A DNA stretch of 55,439 bases, taken from an uncultured Lachnospiraceae bacterium (GTDB taxonomy: Bacteria; Bacillota; Clostridia; Lachnospirales; Lachnospiraceae). Of the stretch, positions 4,985 to 14,927 are shown piece by piece. Both the position numbers and the translations under genes were made by a program. The first letter of the stretch is position 1. Every line of letters begins with the position of its first letter. The notes under the pieces are model-generated. The model was not told the origin of the DNA, searched no databases, and saw only the letters and a list, made by a program, of their open reading frames with translations. Where the stretch lies: positions 1 through 55,439 of the forward strand of contig CANRIG010000011.1 of assembly GCA_947630595.1 (NCBI GenBank), given 5' to 3'.

Positions 4985-6304
4985 TCAGGTCTCAAAGATC
5001 ACCCTGATCTCCGTGCCTTTCCCCACCTCGCTGTGCAGCTCAATCCGGGCGTGGTGCTGCGCCACGATGTGCTTGACGATGGCCAGGCCCAGGCCGGTGC
5101 CGCCGGTCGATTTGGAGCGGCTCTTGTCCACCCGGTAAAACCGCTCAAACACGCGCTCCCGGCTCTCCTCGGGAATGCCGATGCCGGTGTCCTTCACCGT
5201 GAGCACCGTCTGCGCGCCCCGCGCCTGGGCCGTCACATCCACGCGGCCGCCCGGGCGGTTGTAGCGGATGGCGTTGTCGCAGAGGTTGAACAGCAGCTCC
5301 TCCATCATGCCCCGGTCAGCGTGAATCAGGCAGCGGCTCCCATGGCAGTGCAGCGAGACGCCGTGATCAGCAGCGCTGAACTCCAGCATTTCCACGCAGC
5401 TTTCGGCCACCTCATGGAGGTCCACCTCGCTGTGCGCCGCCACGGCATGGCCGCCGTCCAGCTCCGAGAGGCGGATGGTATCGTTGATCAGCGTCAGCAG
5501 CCGGTTGGCGTTGCGGTGAATCTCCCCGGCAAAGCGGCTGACCTCGTTCTCCCCGGCAATCCCGGTCTCGATCAGCTCCGCGTAGCCGGAAATCGCGGTC
5601 AGCGGCGTTTTCAGCTCGTGGGAGACATTGGCCGTAAATTCCTGGCGCATGTTTGCGCTGCGGAGGATGTCGCTGTGCTGCTGGCGGATGGTGGTGATAA
5701 ACGGCACCAGCTCCTCGTAGGCGTCGATCCCGCCGGCATGGTCGATGTCCGCCGCCAGCCGCTCGATCGGCCGCACGATGCCGGCCGTGATATAGCGGGA
5801 CAGAAACAGGCAGATCAGAAACATCACGGCGCCGATGGCGACGATGCCGTACGTCGTGTTGTAAAACACGCGCCAGATGCTGTCCGCCTCCCTGCTGATG
5901 CGCAGGATATCGCCGTCTTCCAGCGTCAGCGCATAATAATACATATCCCGGTCGAGCGTGTCCGAATGCCGCACGACATAGCCCTCGCCGCCGTCTAACG
6001 CCTCCTGAATCTCGGGCCGGCCGGCGTGGTTGTCCATCGCCTCGCTGCCGGTCTGGCTGTCAAACAGCACCACGCCCTCCGGATCGATCACCGTCACCCG
6101 CAGTTCCTCAGGCGGAGACGCGTATTCCCGCCGCAGCGCCTCCCCGGAGGGGGCCATGCCGCGCAGGATCTCGGCATAAGTCTGCATATCGTGAATGATC
6201 TGGCTGCGGTACATATGATGAAAGACGGCAACCGCCATAAAGAGGGTCGCCGCCAGGGTCAGAAACGCCGTCAGCAGCAGATACCGGTTGATCTTCTTTT
6301 TCAT
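4985..6304 (-). CDS. phoR: PhoR-type sensor histidine kinase
   Basis: 439 residues. Two transmembrane segments (about 8-30 and 152-172) enclose an extracellular sensor region of about 120 residues. The kinase core is intact: H-box ANVSHELKTPL with His229, N-box NLCDNAIRYN (N344), G1 DTGIGIP (372-378) and G2 GGTGLGLAI (401-409). It should autophosphorylate and pass phosphate to the response regulator encoded six bases upstream. Synteny with pst, phoU and the Na/Pi carrier supports phosphate-starvation signalling, probably through contact with PhoU and the Pst transporter. No PAS domain was obvious to me. The start is ATG. Confidence 0.9.
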   Translation of the reverse strand: MKKKINRYLLLTAFLTLAATLFMAVAVFHHMYRSQIIHDMQTYAEILRGMAPSGEALRREYASPPEELRVTVIDPEGVVLFDSQTGSEAMDNHAGRPEIQEALDGGEGYVVRHSDTLDRDMYYYALTLEDGDILRISREADSIWRVFYNTTYGIVAIGAVMFLICLFLSRYITAGIVRPIERLAADIDHAGGIDAYEELVPFITTIRQQHSDILRSANMRQEFTANVSHELKTPLTAISGYAELIETGIAGENEVSRFAGEIHRNANRLLTLINDTIRLSELDGGHAVAAHSEVDLHEVAESCVEMLEFSAADHGVSLHCHGSRCLIHADRGMMEELLFNLCDNAIRYNRPGGRVDVTAQARGAQTVLTVKDTGIGIPEESRERVFERFYRVDKSRSKSTGGTGLGLAIVKHIVAQHHARIELHSEVGKGTEIRVIFET

Positions 6305-6310
6305 TTCCCG

Positions 6311-6988
6311 TCACTCTCCCGTCAGCATGTAGCCGACGTTGCGCACCGTCCGGATCATCGCGCCCGCATCCCCGAGCTTCTGGCGCAGCGTCTTGATGTG
6401 CATGTCCAGCGTCCGCGACTCGCCCTCAAAGTCCGTGCCCCAGACGCGGTCGAGAATCACGTCCCGCGAGGCCACGATGCCCGCGTTCAAAAGCAGCAGC
6501 TTCAGCAGCTCGTACTCCTTGTAGGTCAGCTCGCACGGCCGGTCGCCGGCAAACACCGCCCGCCGCTCGTCGTCCATGAAAATCGGCCCCAGGCGGATCA
6601 GGCGCTCCTCCTCCATGCCGCGGCTGCGGCGCAGCAGCGCCTTGACCCGGGAAATCAGCTCCATCACGCCGAACGGCTTGGTGATGTAATCATCCGCGCC
6701 GATGTCCAGCCCCTTTACCTTGTCGATCTCCGTAGTTTTGGCCGTCGCCATGATGATCGGCAGCCGGCGCGTCTCCGCGGCCGCGCGCAGCCGCTTCACC
6801 ATCGACAGGCCGTCCTCGTCCGGCAGCATGATGTCCAGCAGCGCCAGCGCCGGCACTTTCTCTTTCAGCCTCGCATAAAACGCAGAGGCGCAGTCAAAGC
6901 CCTGCACCTCGTAGCCCGCATTTTTCAGCGCGAACATCTCGATCTCGCGGATGTTCTCGTCGTCTTCCACAATATAAATCAATGCCAT
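6311..6988 (-). CDS. phoB: PhoB/PhoP-type response regulator
   Basis: 225 residues: receiver domain (1 to about 115) with acidic pocket E8-D9-D10, phospho-acceptor D52 in LLDIMLPD and a conserved Lys in ITKPFG, followed by an OmpR-type winged helix (TYKEYELLKLLLLN; RTLDMHIKTLRQKLG; VRNVGYML). The ATG at 6988 is preceded by GGGAG and matches the usual MALIYIVEDD start; an upstream in-frame start would add residues from the repeat copy. It pairs with phoR and likely binds the TTTTAC repeats before pstS and the Na/Pi gene. Confidence 0.92.
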   Translation of the reverse strand: MALIYIVEDDENIREIEMFALKNAGYEVQGFDCASAFYARLKEKVPALALLDIMLPDEDGLSMVKRLRAAAETRRLPIIMATAKTTEIDKVKGLDIGADDYITKPFGVMELISRVKALLRRSRGMEEERLIRLGPIFMDDERRAVFAGDRPCELTYKEYELLKLLLLNAGIVASRDVILDRVWGTDFEGESRTLDMHIKTLRQKLGDAGAMIRTVRNVGYMLTGE

Positions 6989-7021
6989 TTTTGCGCTCTC
7001 CCTGCGTATTTCCGAACTATG

Positions 7022-7171
7022 CCTCCGGGGCGTGACCATCCATTGTACACGAGATCCTCGTTACATCTGTCTGCCTGCGTCGGACTGCCGTCCGCCTCAG
7101 GACAGACATCTGTCTCGGATATGTGTACAATCGGATGGCCACAGGCCCCTCCGGATAACTTACAGACAGTC
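7022..7171. repeat. Dispersed fold-back element, copy B
   Basis: Same orientation and core as copy A. Inner arms are ATTGTACAC (7042-7050) and GTGTACAAT (7123-7131). Compared with copy A both arms changed together (C to A on the left, G to T on the right), so pairing is kept. CCATC/GATGG extend the stem outward, and CAGACAGTC occurs at 7163-7171; the left outer end is degenerate. It lies between the probable phoBR promoter and the phoB start. Confidence 0.8.
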
Positions 7172-7286: not shown

Positions 7287-9116
7287 TTACCGCGCAGGCT
7301 GCATCCGCGCCCGCATATCCACCCGGGGCGTGCCTTTGACGCGCTCCGGGAGCGCGTATTTCTCCTTGTATTTGCGGAACTGGTCGCGGAACTGGCGGTT
7401 ATCCTCATAGCGCAGCGAGTTCAGGTACTCGTGCCTGCCGTAGACGTCGTTTTCCGCCTGAATCATGCAGACCGCGATGTTGGAGCAGTGGTCTGCGATG
7501 CGGTTGTAGCTGGTGGTCAGGTCGGATAAGATGAAGCCCAGCTCGATCGTGCAGCGGCCCTCGCGCAGACGGTCGATGTGGCGCTTTTTCATCTCGTCGC
7601 CCAGATCGTCGATGACCTCCTCCATCGGTTCCACGTCGAAGGCCATGGCGGTATTTTCCTCTTTCAGTGCCTCCATGGAGATGCGGGCCACCTCCCGCAC
7701 CGCCGCCGAGAACACCTCCAGCTCGCCCACCGCCGCCTCCGAGAAGGCCAGATTTTTCTCGTAGATTTCCCGGGCCGCAGAGGCGATGCTCACCGCGTGG
7801 TCGGAGATGCGCTCGATGTCGCCGATGCAGTGCAGCAGCATCGACAGCGTGTGGCTGTCCTTCGTCTGCATCTCATGCTTCGCCGCCTGCACCAGATAGG
7901 TGCCGAGGCGGTCCTCATATTTATCCACGACGCTCTCCGCCTCCGTCACCTGCTCCAGGATGCGCTCGTCAAACGTGTCCAGCAGCGAGATGGCCGCGTC
8001 CAGCGACCCGAGCGTCACCTCCGCCATCTTCGCGCAGGCCACGCGGCACTGCGCCATTGCCAGCGCCGGGTTCTCCAGGAAACGGCTGTCCAGCGCCGAC
8101 AGGCCCTCGAGGCTCTTTTCCACCGTATGCTCGTCGCCCTGGCGGTCGCGCACCGTCCACTGCGCCAGCTTCACCAGCACCTTATGAAACGGCAGCCACA
8201 GAAGCGTCGCAAACACATTGAAAAAGGTATGCACGACGGCGATTCCGGCCGCGCCGGCCGCCTGTGTGAGAAACGAAAAATGCACCGCCGCGTTGACCGC
8301 GTAAAACAGGATCATAAAAATGATGGTGCCGATCAGGTTGAAATACAGGTGCACGAACGCCGTGCGCTTGGCGTTTTTGCGGGCCCCGATGGCCGAGATC
8401 AGCGCCGTCACGCAGGTGCCGATGTTCTGGCCCATGATGATCGGGATCGCCGAGCCGTAGGAGACCGCGCCGGTCGCGCACAGCGCCTGCAGAATACCGA
8501 CCGAGGCCGACGAGCTCTGGATGATCGCGGTCAGCACCGCGCCGGCCAGCATGCCCAGCACCGGATTTTCAAACATCAGAAACAGGTTGGTGAACTCCGG
8601 CACGTCCGCCAGCGGCTTCACCGCCCCGCTCATGGTCTCCATGCCGGTCATCAGCACCGCGAAGCCGACCATGATCGCGCCGGCGTCTTTCTTTTTGTCC
8701 TTTTTGGAAAACAGCAGAAAGGCCACGCCGATGATCGCCAGGATCGGCGAAAACGACGACGGCTTCAGCATTTTAATCAGAAAATTGTCACCCTGCAGCC
8801 CCGACAGGCTCAGAATCCAGGAAGTGATCGTGGTGCCGATGTTGGCGCCCATGATGATGCCCACCGCCCGCTGCAGCGTCATGATGCCGGAGTTTACAAA
8901 GCCGACCACCATGACCGTGGTCGCCGACGACGACTGAATCACCGCCGTCACGGCCGCGCCCAGCAGCACGCCGCGGAAAATATTGGAGGTCAGCTTCTCC
9001 AGTATCTTTTCCAGCCGGCCTCCGGACGCCCGCGACAGCCCGTCCCCCATCACGTGCATTCCGTACAGGAACAGGGCCAGGCCGCCGATCATTGTCAATA
9101 CGCTAAATATGTCCAT
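7287..9116 (-). CDS. Na/Pi cotransporter II family protein with C-terminal PhoU-like domain
   Basis: 609 residues. The N-terminal half carries two inverted membrane repeats, each with the QSSSA signature of the family (Q61-S64 in AVIQSSSATT, and a second in AIIQSSSASV). The C-terminal part is helical and PhoU-like (IGDIERISDHAVSIA; RIADHCSNIA), a layout known as NptA/YjbB. It probably moves phosphate with sodium across the membrane; some relatives export phosphate, so direction is uncertain. ATG with GGAGG upstream. It follows phoU in the pst cluster and has its own PHO-box-like array, so it is very likely phosphate regulated. Confidence 0.9.
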   Translation of the reverse strand: MDIFSVLTMIGGLALFLYGMHVMGDGLSRASGGRLEKILEKLTSNIFRGVLLGAAVTAVIQSSSATTVMVVGFVNSGIMTLQRAVGIIMGANIGTTITSWILSLSGLQGDNFLIKMLKPSSFSPILAIIGVAFLLFSKKDKKKDAGAIMVGFAVLMTGMETMSGAVKPLADVPEFTNLFLMFENPVLGMLAGAVLTAIIQSSSASVGILQALCATGAVSYGSAIPIIMGQNIGTCVTALISAIGARKNAKRTAFVHLYFNLIGTIIFMILFYAVNAAVHFSFLTQAAGAAGIAVVHTFFNVFATLLWLPFHKVLVKLAQWTVRDRQGDEHTVEKSLEGLSALDSRFLENPALAMAQCRVACAKMAEVTLGSLDAAISLLDTFDERILEQVTEAESVVDKYEDRLGTYLVQAAKHEMQTKDSHTLSMLLHCIGDIERISDHAVSIASAAREIYEKNLAFSEAAVGELEVFSAAVREVARISMEALKEENTAMAFDVEPMEEVIDDLGDEMKKRHIDRLREGRCTIELGFILSDLTTSYNRIADHCSNIAVCMIQAENDVYGRHEYLNSLRYEDNRQFRDQFRKYKEKYALPERVKGTPRVDMRARMQPAR

Positions 9117-9277: not shown

Positions 9278-9973
9278 TCAGACAGGCGAAGCCGGATCGC
9301 CCTGCGGAGCGAACAGCTGGTAAGCCTCCTCGCCGCTGCGGTGAATCCCGTTGATGGAAAATTCCACCCATTCGCCGATGTTGGTCGCGTGGTCGCCGAT
9401 GCGCTCGTAGTACTTGGCAATCATCAGCAGGTCCAGAACCTGGTCGCTGGTAAAGCCGGCGCTATTTTCATTGAGGCTCCGGCGCGCCTCCAGAAACAGC
9501 CGGTCGAGCACGTCGTCGCTGTCGATCACCTCCCGCGCCAGCGCCAGGTCGCGGTCGATGTAGGCGGCAATGCTCTTGTTGACCATCTTCATCGTAAATT
9601 CCGCCATCTCGGCGATGCACACGCCCCGCACCGGGACGTCGATGCTGCCGGTTTCCAGGATTTCCGCAATGTCCGTGGCCTGGTCGCCGATGCGTTCCAT
9701 GTCCGTGACCATTTTCAGGGCCGCCGAAATGCGGCGCAGGTCCGTGGCCACCGGCTGCTGCCGGAGCAGAAGCTGGATGCAGAGCGCCTCCACCGTGTGC
9801 TCTTTCTCGTCGATCTCCTTTTCCATCCGGTTGATCTCCGCCACCTGTTCCCCTCGCAGTTCTCTGGAGAGCAGCAGACGGTAGGTTTTCATAATCGCCT
9901 GCTCGCAGAGCGTGCCCATGTCCAGCAGCTCCTTCTGCAGCTGCGCCAGCTTTTCCAGGTATCTCTCCCGCAT
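9278..9973 (-). CDS. phoU: Phosphate transport regulator PhoU
   Basis: 231 residues with the two three-helix repeats of PhoU. The family E/D-R-I-G-D signatures are visible twice: MERIGDQATDIAE in the first half and YERIGDHATNIGEWV in the second. PhoU restrains PhoR signalling and Pst uptake when phosphate is sufficient. ATG with a GGAGG site. It follows pstB directly (1-base gap). The C-terminus runs slightly past the usual end (GEEAYQLFAPQGDPASPV). Confidence 0.93.
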   Translation of the reverse strand: MRERYLEKLAQLQKELLDMGTLCEQAIMKTYRLLLSRELRGEQVAEINRMEKEIDEKEHTVEALCIQLLLRQQPVATDLRRISAALKMVTDMERIGDQATDIAEILETGSIDVPVRGVCIAEMAEFTMKMVNKSIAAYIDRDLALAREVIDSDDVLDRLFLEARRSLNENSAGFTSDQVLDLLMIAKYYERIGDHATNIGEWVEFSINGIHRSGEEAYQLFAPQGDPASPV

Positions 9974-9974
9974 A

Positions 9975-10724
9975 TTATCCGAACCTCCCTGTAATATATT
10001 CCTCTGTTTTCCTGTTTTTCGGCATGGAAAACAGCGCCATCGTATCGTCGTACTCGATCATCTCGCCGAGCAGGAAGAAAGCCGTGCGGTCGGAAATCCG
10101 CGCCGCCTGCTGCATATTATGTGTGACAATTACGATCGTATAGTTCTCCTTCAGCCCGCTGACCAGATCCTCGATTCTGGAGGTTGAGATCGGGTCCAGC
10201 GCCGAGGTGGGCTCATCCATCAGCAGCACCTCCGGTTCCACCGCCAGCGCCCGCGCGATGCAGAGCCGCTGCTGCTGCCCGCCCGACAGCCCGAGCGCGC
10301 TCTTTTTCAGGCGGTCCCGGACCTCGTCCCAGATGGCCGCGTCCCGCAGCGCCTTTTCCACGATTTCATCCAGCCTGCCGCGGGAACGGATGCCGTGCGT
10401 GCGCGGCCCGTAGGCGATGTTGTCGTAGATGCTCATCGGAAACGGGTTCGGTTTCTGAAAGACCATGCCCACGCGCTTCCGAAGCAGATTGACGTCCATG
10501 TCCCCGTAAATGTCTTCGCCGTCCAGCGTCAGCGTGCCCGTGATCCGGCAGCCCTCCACCAGATCGTTCATGCGGTTCAGCGATTTGAGCAGCGTCGACT
10601 TGCCGCAGCCGCTGGGCCCGATGAAAGCCGTGATTTTATTGCCCGGAATATCAAGTGTGATATTTTTGAGGGCCTGAAAGTCGCCGTAAAACAGGTCGGC
10701 GTTTTTAATTTCGATTTTTCCCAT
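9975..10724 (-). CDS. pstB: Phosphate ABC transporter ATP-binding protein PstB
   Basis: 249 residues, the usual length. Walker [10 protein letters not shown] (36-44), Q-loop in [13 protein letters not shown], signature LSGGQQQR, Walker [13 protein letters not shown] and the H-loop in VTHNMQQA are intact. It powers phosphate import through PstA/PstC at the inner face of the membrane. ATG with GGAGG nine bases upstream. The 88-base gap to pstA shows no obvious terminator. Confidence 0.95.
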
Positions 10725-10812: not shown

Positions 10813-11694
10813 TCACCCCTGCCGCTTCATCAGGCTCCGCGCGCAGGCCGTGGAGAGCGCGTTCAGCGCCAGCACCACCGCCAGCAGCACAACCGCCGTC
10901 GCGTACGCCTGATCCATGTAGATGCCCTCGGTGGAGAGCACATACATGTGTACTGCCAGCGAACGCCCGGAATCCATGAGGCTGGAGACCATTTTGGTCG
11001 CCGTGCCCGCCGGGTACAGCACCGCCGCCGTCTCGCCGACGATGCGGCCCGTCGCCAAAACGACGCCGGAGAGAATGCCGGGAATCGCGGTCGGCAGCAC
11101 CACCCGGAAAATGGTGCGCAGCTTTCCCGCGCCCAGCCCGAACGAAGCCTCACGGTAGGCGTCGGGAACGCTGATCAGAGCTTCCTCGGTGGTGCGGATG
11201 ACCAGCGGCAGAATCATGATCACCAGAGTCATCGACCCTGCCAGCAGCGAATAGCGCCATTTCAGAGCCGTGCAGAAAAACAGCAGGCCGAACAGGCCAT
11301 ATATAATAGAAGGAATGCCCTGCAGCGTCTCCGTTGTGATGCGGATCAGGCCGACCATGCGGCTTCCTTTTTTTGCGTATTCCACTAAATAGACCGCGGC
11401 GAAAATGCCCAGCGGAACGGCGATCAGCAGCGCCGTCGCGGTGATGATCAGCGTATTGATCAGCGCCGGCATCAGCGATACGTTATCCGTTGTGTAGTTC
11501 CAGGAAAACAGCTCCGGCGACAGGTGCCGCACGCCCTTGATTACGATAAAACCCACCAGAAAGACCAGCGCCGCCATCACCAGCAGCGCGGCCAGCCAGA
11601 CCAGCGCGGCTACCGCGGCGGCGAGCGGATGCCGTCCGGCATACCGCAGGAAGCCGCCCGGGGATTTGTTCTTTTTTGTATTCCGATTATTCAT
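10813..11694 (-). CDS. pstA: Phosphate ABC transporter permease PstA
   Basis: 293 residues with about six transmembrane helices and the BPD_transp_1 coupling motif region ([25 protein letters not shown]). It forms the membrane channel with PstC. Its start overlaps the end of pstC by eight bases, indicating translational coupling. Confidence 0.93.
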
Positions 11695-12544
11695 AGAGAG
11701 TTCTCCGTTTCAGCGCCGACACGCAGAGATTGATGATCAGGATAAACACAAACAGCACCACGCCGGTCGCAATCAGCGCTTCCCGGTGCAGGTCGGTCGC
11801 ATAGCCCATCTCCATCACGATATTGGTCGTCATCGTGCGCAGCCCTTTCAGCAGTCCCTGCGGCATCCAGGTCTGATTGCCCGCGACCATGATCACCGCC
11901 ATGGTCTCGCCGATGGAACGCCCGACGCCCAGCACGATCCCGGCAATCACGCCGGACTTCGCCGCCGGCAGCACCACGCAGAACACGCTGCGCTCATGCG
12001 TGGCTCCCAGCGCCAGCGAGCCCTCGTAATAGTGCTCCGGGACGCTGCGCAGCGCCGGCTCCACCACTCCCGTGACCGTCGGCAGAATCATAATCCCCAG
12101 CAGCAAAGAAGCCGTCAGCATCGTGCTTCCGTCCTGCCCGGTCAGGCGGCGCATCAGCGGCACGATCCAGACAAGGCCGAAAAAGCCGTACACCACGGAG
12201 GGGATGCCCGCCATCAGATTAACCATCGCTTTCAGGACCGGATACAGCCGCTTCGGACAGTAGAAGGCCAGAAATACGGCGGTCAACAGCGCGGTCGGCA
12301 CCCCGATCAGCACCGAACCCGCCGTCACGTAAATGCTGCCCAGGATAAAGGGCAGAATCCCGTACAGATCATTGGAGGGCTTCCATTTCTGCCCGAACAG
12401 GAAATCCGGCAGCCCGATTTCCAGCATCGCCGGAATCCCGTTGGCAAAGAGAAAGATACAGATCAGCACCACCGCCAGCACCGACGTGCAGGCCGCCGCC
12501 AGAAACAGAACCCTCATGATCCGTTCTGAATATTTTCCTTTCAT
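11687..12544 (-). CDS. pstC: Phosphate ABC transporter permease PstC
   Basis: 285 residues, about six transmembrane helices. The permease loop VEPALRSVPEHYYEGSLALG is the EAA-type contact with PstB. The ATG at 12544 overlaps the pstS stop by four bases, so it is coupled to the binding-protein gene. No special feature beyond the family pattern. Confidence 0.93.
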   Translation of the reverse strand: MKGKYSERIMRVLFLAAACTSVLAVVLICIFLFANGIPAMLEIGLPDFLFGQKWKPSNDLYGILPFILGSIYVTAGSVLIGVPTALLTAVFLAFYCPKRLYPVLKAMVNLMAGIPSVVYGFFGLVWIVPLMRRLTGQDGSTMLTASLLLGIMILPTVTGVVEPALRSVPEHYYEGSLALGATHERSVFCVVLPAAKSGVIAGIVLGVGRSIGETMAVIMVAGNQTWMPQGLLKGLRTMTTNIVMEMGYATDLHREALIATGVVLFVFILIINLCVSALKRRTLYE

Positions 12545-13395
12545 TGCAGTTCTTCCCAGGTCGTGATTTCACCCGTGAAAATCGCTTTCACCTGTTCGCT
12601 CGTCATTTCCGTCATGCCATTATCGTTGTTGACGATCACCGCGATGCCATCCTGCGCGATCACGGTCGGGGTCAGGCCCGCTTCCAGCTCGCTGTCCTTC
12701 AGTTCGCGGGACGCCATGCCGATGTCGCACAGCCCGTCGATCGCGGAGGTCATGCCCGTCGTCGAATCGCTCTGCTGCACCTCGATCTCCACCTTGTCGT
12801 TGACCGCCTGATACGCCTCGGCCAGCTTCTCCATCACCGGCGTCACCGAGGAAGAACCGGCCACGACCACCTTGCCCTCGGCCTCGCCGCCTGCAAACGC
12901 CTCCGGCTCGCCCACGGAAATATAGCCTTCCTCGCTGATCACGTTCTGGCCCTCCTCGCTCATGATATAAGCGATGAAGTCCGCCGCCGCGTCGCTCACC
13001 TCGCCGGTGGTCGCAATGTTGAACGGGCGCACTACCTTGTAGTCGCCGGACAGGATATTCTCAGCCGTCGCATCCACGCCGTCGATCGCCAGCGCCGTCA
13101 CGGTGTCGTTCAGGGAGCCGAGGGAAATGTAGCCGATCGCGTTCACGTCGCCCTCCACCGTGCTCATCATCACGGACGTACTGTTTGTGATCTTTGCGGC
13201 TTCCGTAGTGTTGTCCACCTTCTCGCCGTCCTCATTCTCCTCTTCAATGCCGAGCAGCTCAATGAACGCGCCCCGCGTGCCGGAGCCGTCCTCCCGCGAG
13301 CAGATCGTAATATTGCCCTCGGCCGCCGCCGCGCTCATGCCGATGCCCGCCGTCATCACTGCTGCCATTGCCAATGCCACTGTTCTTTTTTTCAT
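12541..13395 (-). CDS. pstS: Phosphate-binding protein PstS with circularly permuted domain order
   Basis: 284 residues. A signal peptide (about 1-25, AAA-AEG) has no lipobox Cys. The usual Gram-positive PstS begins with a GSSSVTP-type phosphate loop and passes through ITTWEEL into SREDGSGTR. Here SREDGSGTR is at 33-41, followed by the rest of the usual C-terminal half (NAIGYISLGSLND, RPFNIAT, FIAYIMSEEGQ). A linker near 158-174 then leads to GSSSVTPVMEKLAEAY at 180-195, and the protein stops at ITTWEEL (277-283). All phosphate-contact loops are present but the order is rotated. ATG has AGGAGG upstream. Gene position and PHO boxes support the Pst function; the permutation is my reading of the motif order. 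Confidence 0.9.
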   Translation of the reverse strand: MKKRTVALAMAAVMTAGIGMSAAAAEGNITICSREDGSGTRGAFIELLGIEEENEDGEKVDNTTEAAKITNSTSVMMSTVEGDVNAIGYISLGSLNDTVTALAIDGVDATAENILSGDYKVVRPFNIATTGEVSDAAADFIAYIMSEEGQNVISEEGYISVGEPEAFAGGEAEGKVVVAGSSSVTPVMEKLAEAYQAVNDKVEIEVQQSDSTTGMTSAIDGLCDIGMASRELKDSELEAGLTPTVIAQDGIAVIVNNDNGMTEMTSEQVKAIFTGEITTWEELQ

Positions 13396-13446
13396 AATAA
13401 AATCAACCTCCTGAAATGTTATGTCTGTCTTGCTCAAGACAACCAC

Positions 13447-13491
13447 ATTTTAGGAGGTTAAAGTAAAATTCACCAGCACGGTAATGTAAAA
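13447..13491 (-). promoter_or_regulatory. PHO-box-like sites and -10 for pstS
   Basis: Minus strand TTTTAC at 13463-13468 lies 10 bases from TAAAAT (13447-13452). Another TTTTAC at 13486-13491 is 23 bases upstream. The geometry matches the Na/Pi promoter. The transcript start would be about 45 bases before the ATG. Confidence 0.65.
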
Positions 13492-13508: not shown

Positions 13509-14912
13509 TCAAGTGTTCTTCACCTGATACATATCCTCAAGCGTAATCAGGCGCACATCTCCGCCTGCCGCCCGCCGGACAAGCGGACCGGTAAACCCGG
13601 ATTTGGAAAACAGATAATAATATCGCCGCGAAAAATGCCCCATAGCTTCTCCGTAATCTTCCATCAGCCGCAGTTCATCCTCGCCCACCGGACTGTCCGT
13701 ATATTTGCACGAACCTATAATGCCGCGGTCATCCTCTGCGGAGGTTACTACCAGATCGATCTGCACCTGTCTGTGCGTCTTTGGATGGCCGCCCCACCAC
13801 TGCCCAGCCTTTCCAAGCGCAAAAGGAAGCTCCTGATCATAGAACAGGACAAAGTCCCGGCACATTCTCTCAAAGATTTTCCCCATATAATCCGGCAGCC
13901 TGCGTGCGACAGCCGTCGGATAGGACTGTTCAATTCTGCCCGACTGCACCGCCGACATATTGCGCGGTACAAAGGTATACCAGAAATGGAAAAACTGATC
14001 TTCTATCCGATAATAAGTCTTCTTCCCGCCGGATGCCGTCACCGGCGTTTCCTTCGCAATAATTCCAAGCGTCATCAAATTTGCCATGTATTTCGTACAC
14101 AGACCCGTGTCGATTCCCACAGTCGTCGAAATCTCCGACAATTTGGTTTTTCCTGACGCGATCGCGGTGATGATGGCATTGTACATAGCCGGTTCCCGCA
14201 TTTCCTGCTTCATCAGATTGGAAGGCTCCTCATACAGCATTGCATTGCGCTGAAACAGATTTTCCAGCAAATTTTCCTGAACAGACTGATCCGGGGAAAA
14301 CTGCTCCAGATAAAGGGGAATCCCGCCGGTAATCCCATACATCAGCGCCCGGTCCTCACAGGAATAGTTTGGAAACCAGCGGCCGGTATCTAAATAGTCA
14401 AACGGCAAAATCTTAAACTGCGCTGTTCTCCGTCCATAAAGCGGGCTCTGATAACCCAGCACCTGATTTTCCATAAAACTCATGGAGGAGCCGCAAAGAA
14501 TCAAAAACAGCTTTGTCTGTTTGAACTGATGATCCAGAAAATTCTGCAGGAGCGAAGAAATCCCCCGCTCCGCCTGCGCGAGATATGGATATTCATCAAT
14601 GACCCAGACAAGCCGTTTCCCCTCCGCCGCTTCCGCTATCTTCATAAACGCGTCCGCAAAACTGCGGTAAATCAGGCCCGCACTGCTTTTGCCGGACAGC
14701 GTCTCCGAAATGGCCTCGGATAATGCCTCCAGATTCTGTTCGGCACTGCTCTCCTGCGCCGCAAAAAAGACGGTCGGTTTCCCTTTGCAGAACTCGTTGA
14801 TCAGCGTAGTCTTCCCGACACGGCGGCGTCCGTATATAATGGCAACCTCAAGTCTGCCGCTGCCATACATGCGATTCAGCTTTGCCAGTTCCTGTTCCCG
14901 TCCGATAAACAT
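13509..14912 (-). CDS. Archaeal-type ATPase with winged helix and DUF234-like nuclease tail
   Basis: 467 residues. P-loop GRRRVGKTT (29-37), Walker B LVWVIDEYPYL and sensor LILCGSS in the N-terminal ATPase. A winged-helix segment follows (KLSEISTTVGIDTGLCTKYMANL). The C-terminus resembles DUF234, related to PD-(D/E)XK nucleases: QIDLVV then GIIGSCKYT. Family members usually have E where this has S in the GxCK motif, so nuclease activity may be lost. The ATG at 14912 has GGAGG six bases before it. Cellular role unknown; it is a single-gene unit with its own strong promoter. Related genes are often called putative defence or mobile-element ATPases, but nothing here shows that. Confidence 0.8.
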   Translation of the reverse strand: MFIGREQELAKLNRMYGSGRLEVAIIYGRRRVGKTTLINEFCKGKPTVFFAAQESSAEQNLEALSEAISETLSGKSSAGLIYRSFADAFMKIAEAAEGKRLVWVIDEYPYLAQAERGISSLLQNFLDHQFKQTKLFLILCGSSMSFMENQVLGYQSPLYGRRTAQFKILPFDYLDTGRWFPNYSCEDRALMYGITGGIPLYLEQFSPDQSVQENLLENLFQRNAMLYEEPSNLMKQEMREPAMYNAIITAIASGKTKLSEISTTVGIDTGLCTKYMANLMTLGIIAKETPVTASGGKKTYYRIEDQFFHFWYTFVPRNMSAVQSGRIEQSYPTAVARRLPDYMGKIFERMCRDFVLFYDQELPFALGKAGQWWGGHPKTHRQVQIDLVVTSAEDDRGIIGSCKYTDSPVGEDELRLMEDYGEAMGHFSRRYYYLFSKSGFTGPLVRRAAGGDVRLITLEDMYQVKNT

Positions 14913-14927
14913 AATTTCCTCCAAAAA

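Follow-up and report, generated by a model that had tools for sequence, protein, structure and literature searches.

A natural circularly permuted PstS encoded at the head of a pst operon in a Lachnospiraceae bacterium

The window analysed here, a stretch of 55,439 nucleotides (contig CANRIG010000011.1, assembly GCA_947630595.1) from an uncultured gut bacterium of the Lachnospiraceae, carries on its reverse strand the gene order pstS, pstC, pstA, pstB, phoU, Na/Pi cotransporter, PhoB-like regulator and PhoR/PnpS-like kinase (Table 1). PstS is a textbook transport protein that binds phosphate by two loops, SREDGSGTR and GSSSVTP. In the canonical chain the GSSSVTP half precedes the SREDGSGTR half, whereas in the protein encoded here SREDGSGTR starts at residue 33, GSSSVTP follows at residue 180 and the C-terminal end reads ITTWEELQ. 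An earlier note on this DNA had taken this inverted motif order, with a short linker joining the old C- and N-termini, for a circular permutation, and the comparisons below bear out both points. Residues are numbered from the initiator Met; the searched stretch (12544-13398, reverse strand) adds one Ile codon before it, so that the ranges given below for the protein in alignments to PDB chains (20-284 and 177-283) lie one higher.

A phmmer search of the PDB aligned the canonical PstS chains 4q8r, 4gd5 and 1twy with the protein in two stretches each, in swapped order. The chain 4h1x_A ('Phosphate-binding protein pstS 2') was colinear with it from end to end (20-284 versus 1-264, E 8.6e-65). When the halves were rotated to canonical order the situation reversed: 4q8r, 4gd5, 1twy, 4exl, 4n13 and 4ecf aligned as one stretch each and 4h1x broke into two. 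The predicted structure has the same fold and connectivity as 4h1x, with a predicted local distance difference test score (pLDDT) below 50 over residues 1-22. Both loops are strongly conserved: in a 45-row alignment seven of the nine positions of SREDGSGTR are invariant and the remaining two nearly so, and in GSSSVTP the G, S, S, S and P are invariant. Of the family models, PF12849 matched with 113.4 bits in two stretches (cut-off 27), and TIGR02136 gave 181.9 bits, again in two stretches; without the linker the native order scored 181.0 bits in two stretches and the rotated copy 193.6 bits in one. The protein thus has the PF12849 match, both phosphate loops and pstC, pstA and pstB encoded alongside, but neither a TIGR02136 score above the curated cut-off (206.6 bits) nor the canonical order. 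Since its halves are out of that order, we class it as a permuted variant and not as a canonical member of the family. On these comparisons it is a true, natural circular permutation, with a predicted fold like that of the deposited crystal structure 4h1x.

The arrangement is not confined to one genome. A genome scan yielded 309 loci encoding relatives, and in all of the nearest 80, which were analysed, the halves stand in the permuted order and pstC lies on the same strand as pstS. Lachnospiraceae, Blautia, Eggerthellaceae (Gordonibacter, Slackia, Adlercreutzia), Oscillospiraceae and Traorella are represented. Genomes were counted by hand, the window's own included, when a match ran through the new junction over nearly full length; the permuted PstS is found in at least 50 of 150 sampled genomes of the family, at least 56 of 291 of the class (leaving uncounted the partial junction-spanning matches in G219 and G396) and at least 10 of 299 in the phylum sample. 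The canonical form (TIGR02136 above cut-off) occurs in 50 of the same 150 family genomes, and three of them (G071, G087, G093) have both. A stop codon was flagged within the matched stretch, which is not necessarily the gene, in G353 of the class sample and in G146 and the second copy of G036 of the family sample. L167, L168 and L169 each have two adjacent permuted pstS genes, and in L176 two such genes are separated by several kilobases.

A further sample, of the phylum around G439, was centred on the genome of locus L081 and gave matches in 116 of 245 genomes. Its 20 best-scoring loci (L138-L157) comprise 17 permuted and three canonical ones; 16 of the permuted proteins are of a divergent kind, and the remaining one, L138, which is the gene of L081 again, belongs to the window type. 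With separate profiles for the old distal half (A) and the old proximal half (B), a census of L001-L157 found 118 open reading frames (ORFs) of permuted order AB, among which the window's own gene stands three times (L002, L003, L114), and 38 of canonical order BA. Four ABAB proteins of 593-678 amino acids, each encoded beside pstC and pstA, were found in further genomes; in that of L159 both copies are nearly identical. Taken together, the permuted PstS is real, conserved and probably functional.

How often the permutation arose was addressed with trees of PstS, its halves put into one common order, of PstC and of both concatenated. A first PstS tree of 108 rows, from which the groups were named once it had been viewed, took a hand-picked 26 of the 100 permuted ORFs of L001-L131. 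L138 and L177, which repeat other loci, and L176, which holds two further permuted genes, were left out, and L108 was dropped because a weak extra match spoiled its order string. A second PstS tree kept 73 rows after 35 more had been removed by hand for thinning; the PstC and concatenated trees have 61 rows each. In the 73-row tree the window group (23 rows including 4h1x) has support 85/83 and the divergent group (20 rows) 100/98; L164 and L132/L165 branch among canonical rows at a fork that this tree does not resolve. One clade per group is obtained both in the PstC tree, whose bootstrap had not settled (correlation 0.970; support 99/95 and 100/97), and in the concatenated tree (98/97 and 100/99), and L132, L164 and L165 fall with the window group in both. 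An approximately unbiased (AU) test in which the window group was held together with these three loci gave p 0.306.

A single permutation event for all permuted PstS, after which the divergent group in the phylum around G439 came to look separate through fast evolution, has about an even chance of being correct. The arrangement and the cut site are the same in both groups, and one clade of all permuted rows survives the AU tests (p 0.269 for PstS, 0.388 for PstC and 0.216 for the concatenated alignment). Against it, canonical rows stand between the two groups in the concatenated tree, in which all permuted rows fell on one side of a branch in only 2% of 200 bootstrap trees, and the linkers differ in length, with a median of 10 residues in the window group (9-21; 116 ORFs, the own gene counted three times) and 20 in the divergent group (14-22; 17 ORFs). 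The best trees favour two permutations. Because the AU tests leave one clade unrejected, a firm claim of two independent events was dropped, and we put forward only tentatively, at slightly under an even chance, that PstS may have been permuted at least twice, each time at one and the same loop of lobe 2. One event would belong to the window's group (Clostridia, Eggerthellaceae and streptococci), the other to the divergent group, most of whose members come from the phylum around G439 and in which tandem fusions of the permuted unit occur. Canonical order would be the ancestral state, considering its presence in distant phyla.

The pst operon is intact: family models matched pstC, pstA, pstB and phoU downstream of pstS. 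The Na/Pi cotransporter gene (7287-9116) follows phoU and precedes the genes of the two-component system. The genome has a completeness rating of 99.04%, and no second PstS was found in it, the sole TIGR02136 matches being those to the two halves of the window's pstS; for that reason the permuted protein is very likely the working binding protein of the pst system. The earlier note had thus judged both the operon and the role of its first gene correctly. That the protein is instead a permuted binding protein of PstS fold for another oxyanion is improbable. Its phosphate binding is a prediction from sequence, and PF12849 also matches one other protein of the genome, which is TupA-like; yet both phosphate loops are conserved, the gene is the first of pstSCAB-phoU with Pho-type regulators adjoining, and the genome yielded no further PstS. 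The TupA-like tungstate-binding protein (L001:100-957) matched the TupA model below cut-off, shows no lipobox by eye and is followed by apparent permease and ATPase genes. Two Na/Pi cotransporter genes, one of them within the pst operon, are present in the genome, and no PHO4-type transporter was found in it.

The earlier note had also spoken of PHO boxes. Upstream of pstS one TTTACA stands, and a second copy is discernible by eye only in degenerate form; TTTTACAT repeats are clearer in this position in some of the 15 relatives viewed. A Pho box upstream of the window's pstS is plausible but weak. Further upstream, a 471-amino-acid ORF (13509-14924) has an ATPase-like P-loop by eye and no match in an NCBIfam search.

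Table 1. Features of the permuted pstS gene, its neighbours and fused relatives (positions in the window unless a locus is given)
Feature	Position	Strand	Basis or remark
pstS, circularly permuted, 284 amino acids + stop	12541..13395	-	ATG 13395-13393, stop 12543-12541
Signal peptide	13321..13395	-	end placed by eye at Ala-rich AAAAE
Old distal half (A), residues 27-161, now first	12913..13317	-	alignment to PDB chains, half-order profiles
SREDGSGTR phosphate loop	13273..13299	-	within half A
New linker between old C- and N-termini, ~10-12 residues	12877..12912	-	alignment, half-order profiles
Old proximal half (B), residues 174-284, now last	12544..12876	-	alignment, half-order profiles
GSSSVTP phosphate loop	12838..12858	-	within half B
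pstC	11687..12544	-	TIGR02138, 284.1 bits; overlaps pstS stop (ATGA)
pstA	10813..11694	-	TIGR00974, 268.2 bits
pstB	9975..10724	-	TIGR00972, 417.5 bits
phoU	9278..9973	-	TIGR02135, 172.8 bits
Na/Pi cotransporter, PhoU-like C-terminal part	7287..9116	-	TIGR00704, 241.9 bits; PF02690
PhoB/PhoP-like response regulator	6311..7039	-	best TIGR02154, 216.9 bits, below cut-off 296.2
PhoR/PnpS-like histidine kinase	4985..6304	-	best NF046044, 254.2 bits, below cut-off 400
TTTACA, single, possible Pho-box half	13485..13490	-	weak
Fused tandem permuted PstS (ABAB)	L158:1952-3730; L159:2068-3933; L160:1740-3773; L161:1756-3708

The position of the new chain ends differs from what was first supposed. Residues 177-283 align with residues 4-113 of E. 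coli PstS (1ixh), and lobe 2 of that protein we take to span about residues 76-246. The C-terminus would accordingly fall within lobe 2, at about residue 113 of the E. coli protein, and this alignment does not support the earlier suggestion of new termini at the domain crossover. The order of the halves is read directly from the alignments; the assignment to lobes follows from alignment and the standard fold. More specifically, the chain would start in lobe 2 with the SREDGSGTR loop, cross to lobe 1, pass through the short linker that stands in for the old termini to the GSSSVTP loop of lobe 1, and cross back to end in lobe 2 at ITTWEELQ. Both loops would come together in the cleft, just as they do in canonical PstS, and the protein is predicted to bind phosphate and hand it to PstC/PstA. 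Most likely, such a gene would have arisen when a canonical pstS was duplicated in tandem, the copies fused and the outer halves were then lost.

The N-terminus of canonical PstS lies in lobe 1, and the permutation would shift it, and any membrane anchor with it, to lobe 2. The window's protein lacks a lipobox, with cysteines at residues 32 and 223 only, but a lipobox was found in 41 of the 80 permuted loci (by a loose pattern with visible misses and false hits), and loss of the lipid anchor as a trait tied to permutation is therefore unsupported. In the same genome, which has Lgt, six of 20 SBP_bac_1 proteins (L178-L197, the best 20 of 25 matches) carry a lipobox-like motif, doubtfully so in L192; 13 others seem by eye to have normal signal peptides that lack it, and in L191 the N-terminus is cut off by a contig edge.

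Some observations weigh against parts of this account: even the rotated copy misses the TIGR02136 cut-off, so that the swapped order accounts for the split match and not for the entire shortfall; the loci analysed are the nearest 80 among 309, and exceptions further out would not show; and the unit repeated in the four fused tandem proteins is one that is already permuted. We nevertheless consider it highly probable that this is a natural circularly permuted PstS, predicted to bind and hand over phosphate, the only PstS found in its genome and the head of pstSCAB-phoU. That two canonical copies were misassembled, or a tandem truncated, might be argued from the existence of fused tandem PstS in other bacteria, but this has a negligible probability and is ruled out: all 80 loci and 4h1x keep the same order, and the ORF is complete, begins with a signal peptide and overlaps pstC at ATGA.

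At least a third of the sampled family genomes have the rearranged protein, yet none of the paper text found calls it permuted. Because of the swapped order, family models score the two halves separately, which may make such genes harder to name. With both canonical and permuted PstS present in nature, one can ask how far folding, lobe closure, docking on PstC/PstA and membrane attachment depend on chain order.

Among known structures, 4h1x (Streptococcus pneumoniae PstS2, entry title SP_2084) has the same permuted topology, with 44-45% identity and the same fold, and has been public since 2012. The earlier remark that no described permuted PstS is known is therefore not supported as regards the PDB. 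A literature search gave no paper mentioning '4H1X', which is known here as a PDB record only, and no description of a permuted PstS in the titles and abstract openings found, which is weak evidence as most subscription journals lie outside its coverage. A PstS structure paper with a tree that includes pneumococcal PstS has no word beginning with 'permut' in its main text (PMC12421899), and among the matches listed for 9l8j, a Synechocystis entry with the words 'evolutionary hotspot' in the title, no paper fitted. The permuted variant appears undescribed in accessible text. Beside PstS2 the pneumococcus has PstS1 (4exl/4lat), of canonical order by alignment, whereas in the window's genome a single PstS was found. 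The canonical proteins of Clostridium (4q8r, 4gd5) and Vibrio cholerae (1twy) share homologous halves and phosphate loops with the window's protein, in the opposite order. The clearest precedent found is TpMglB-2 (Tp0684) of Treponema pallidum, likewise a naturally permuted ABC substrate-binding protein, a lipoprotein for which membrane tethering has been suggested as a possible reason for the permutation (PMC4990184). Compared by description only, it differs in binding sugar, in its Type I/cluster B fold, in the site of the cut and in having a fourth crossover (PMC4990184).
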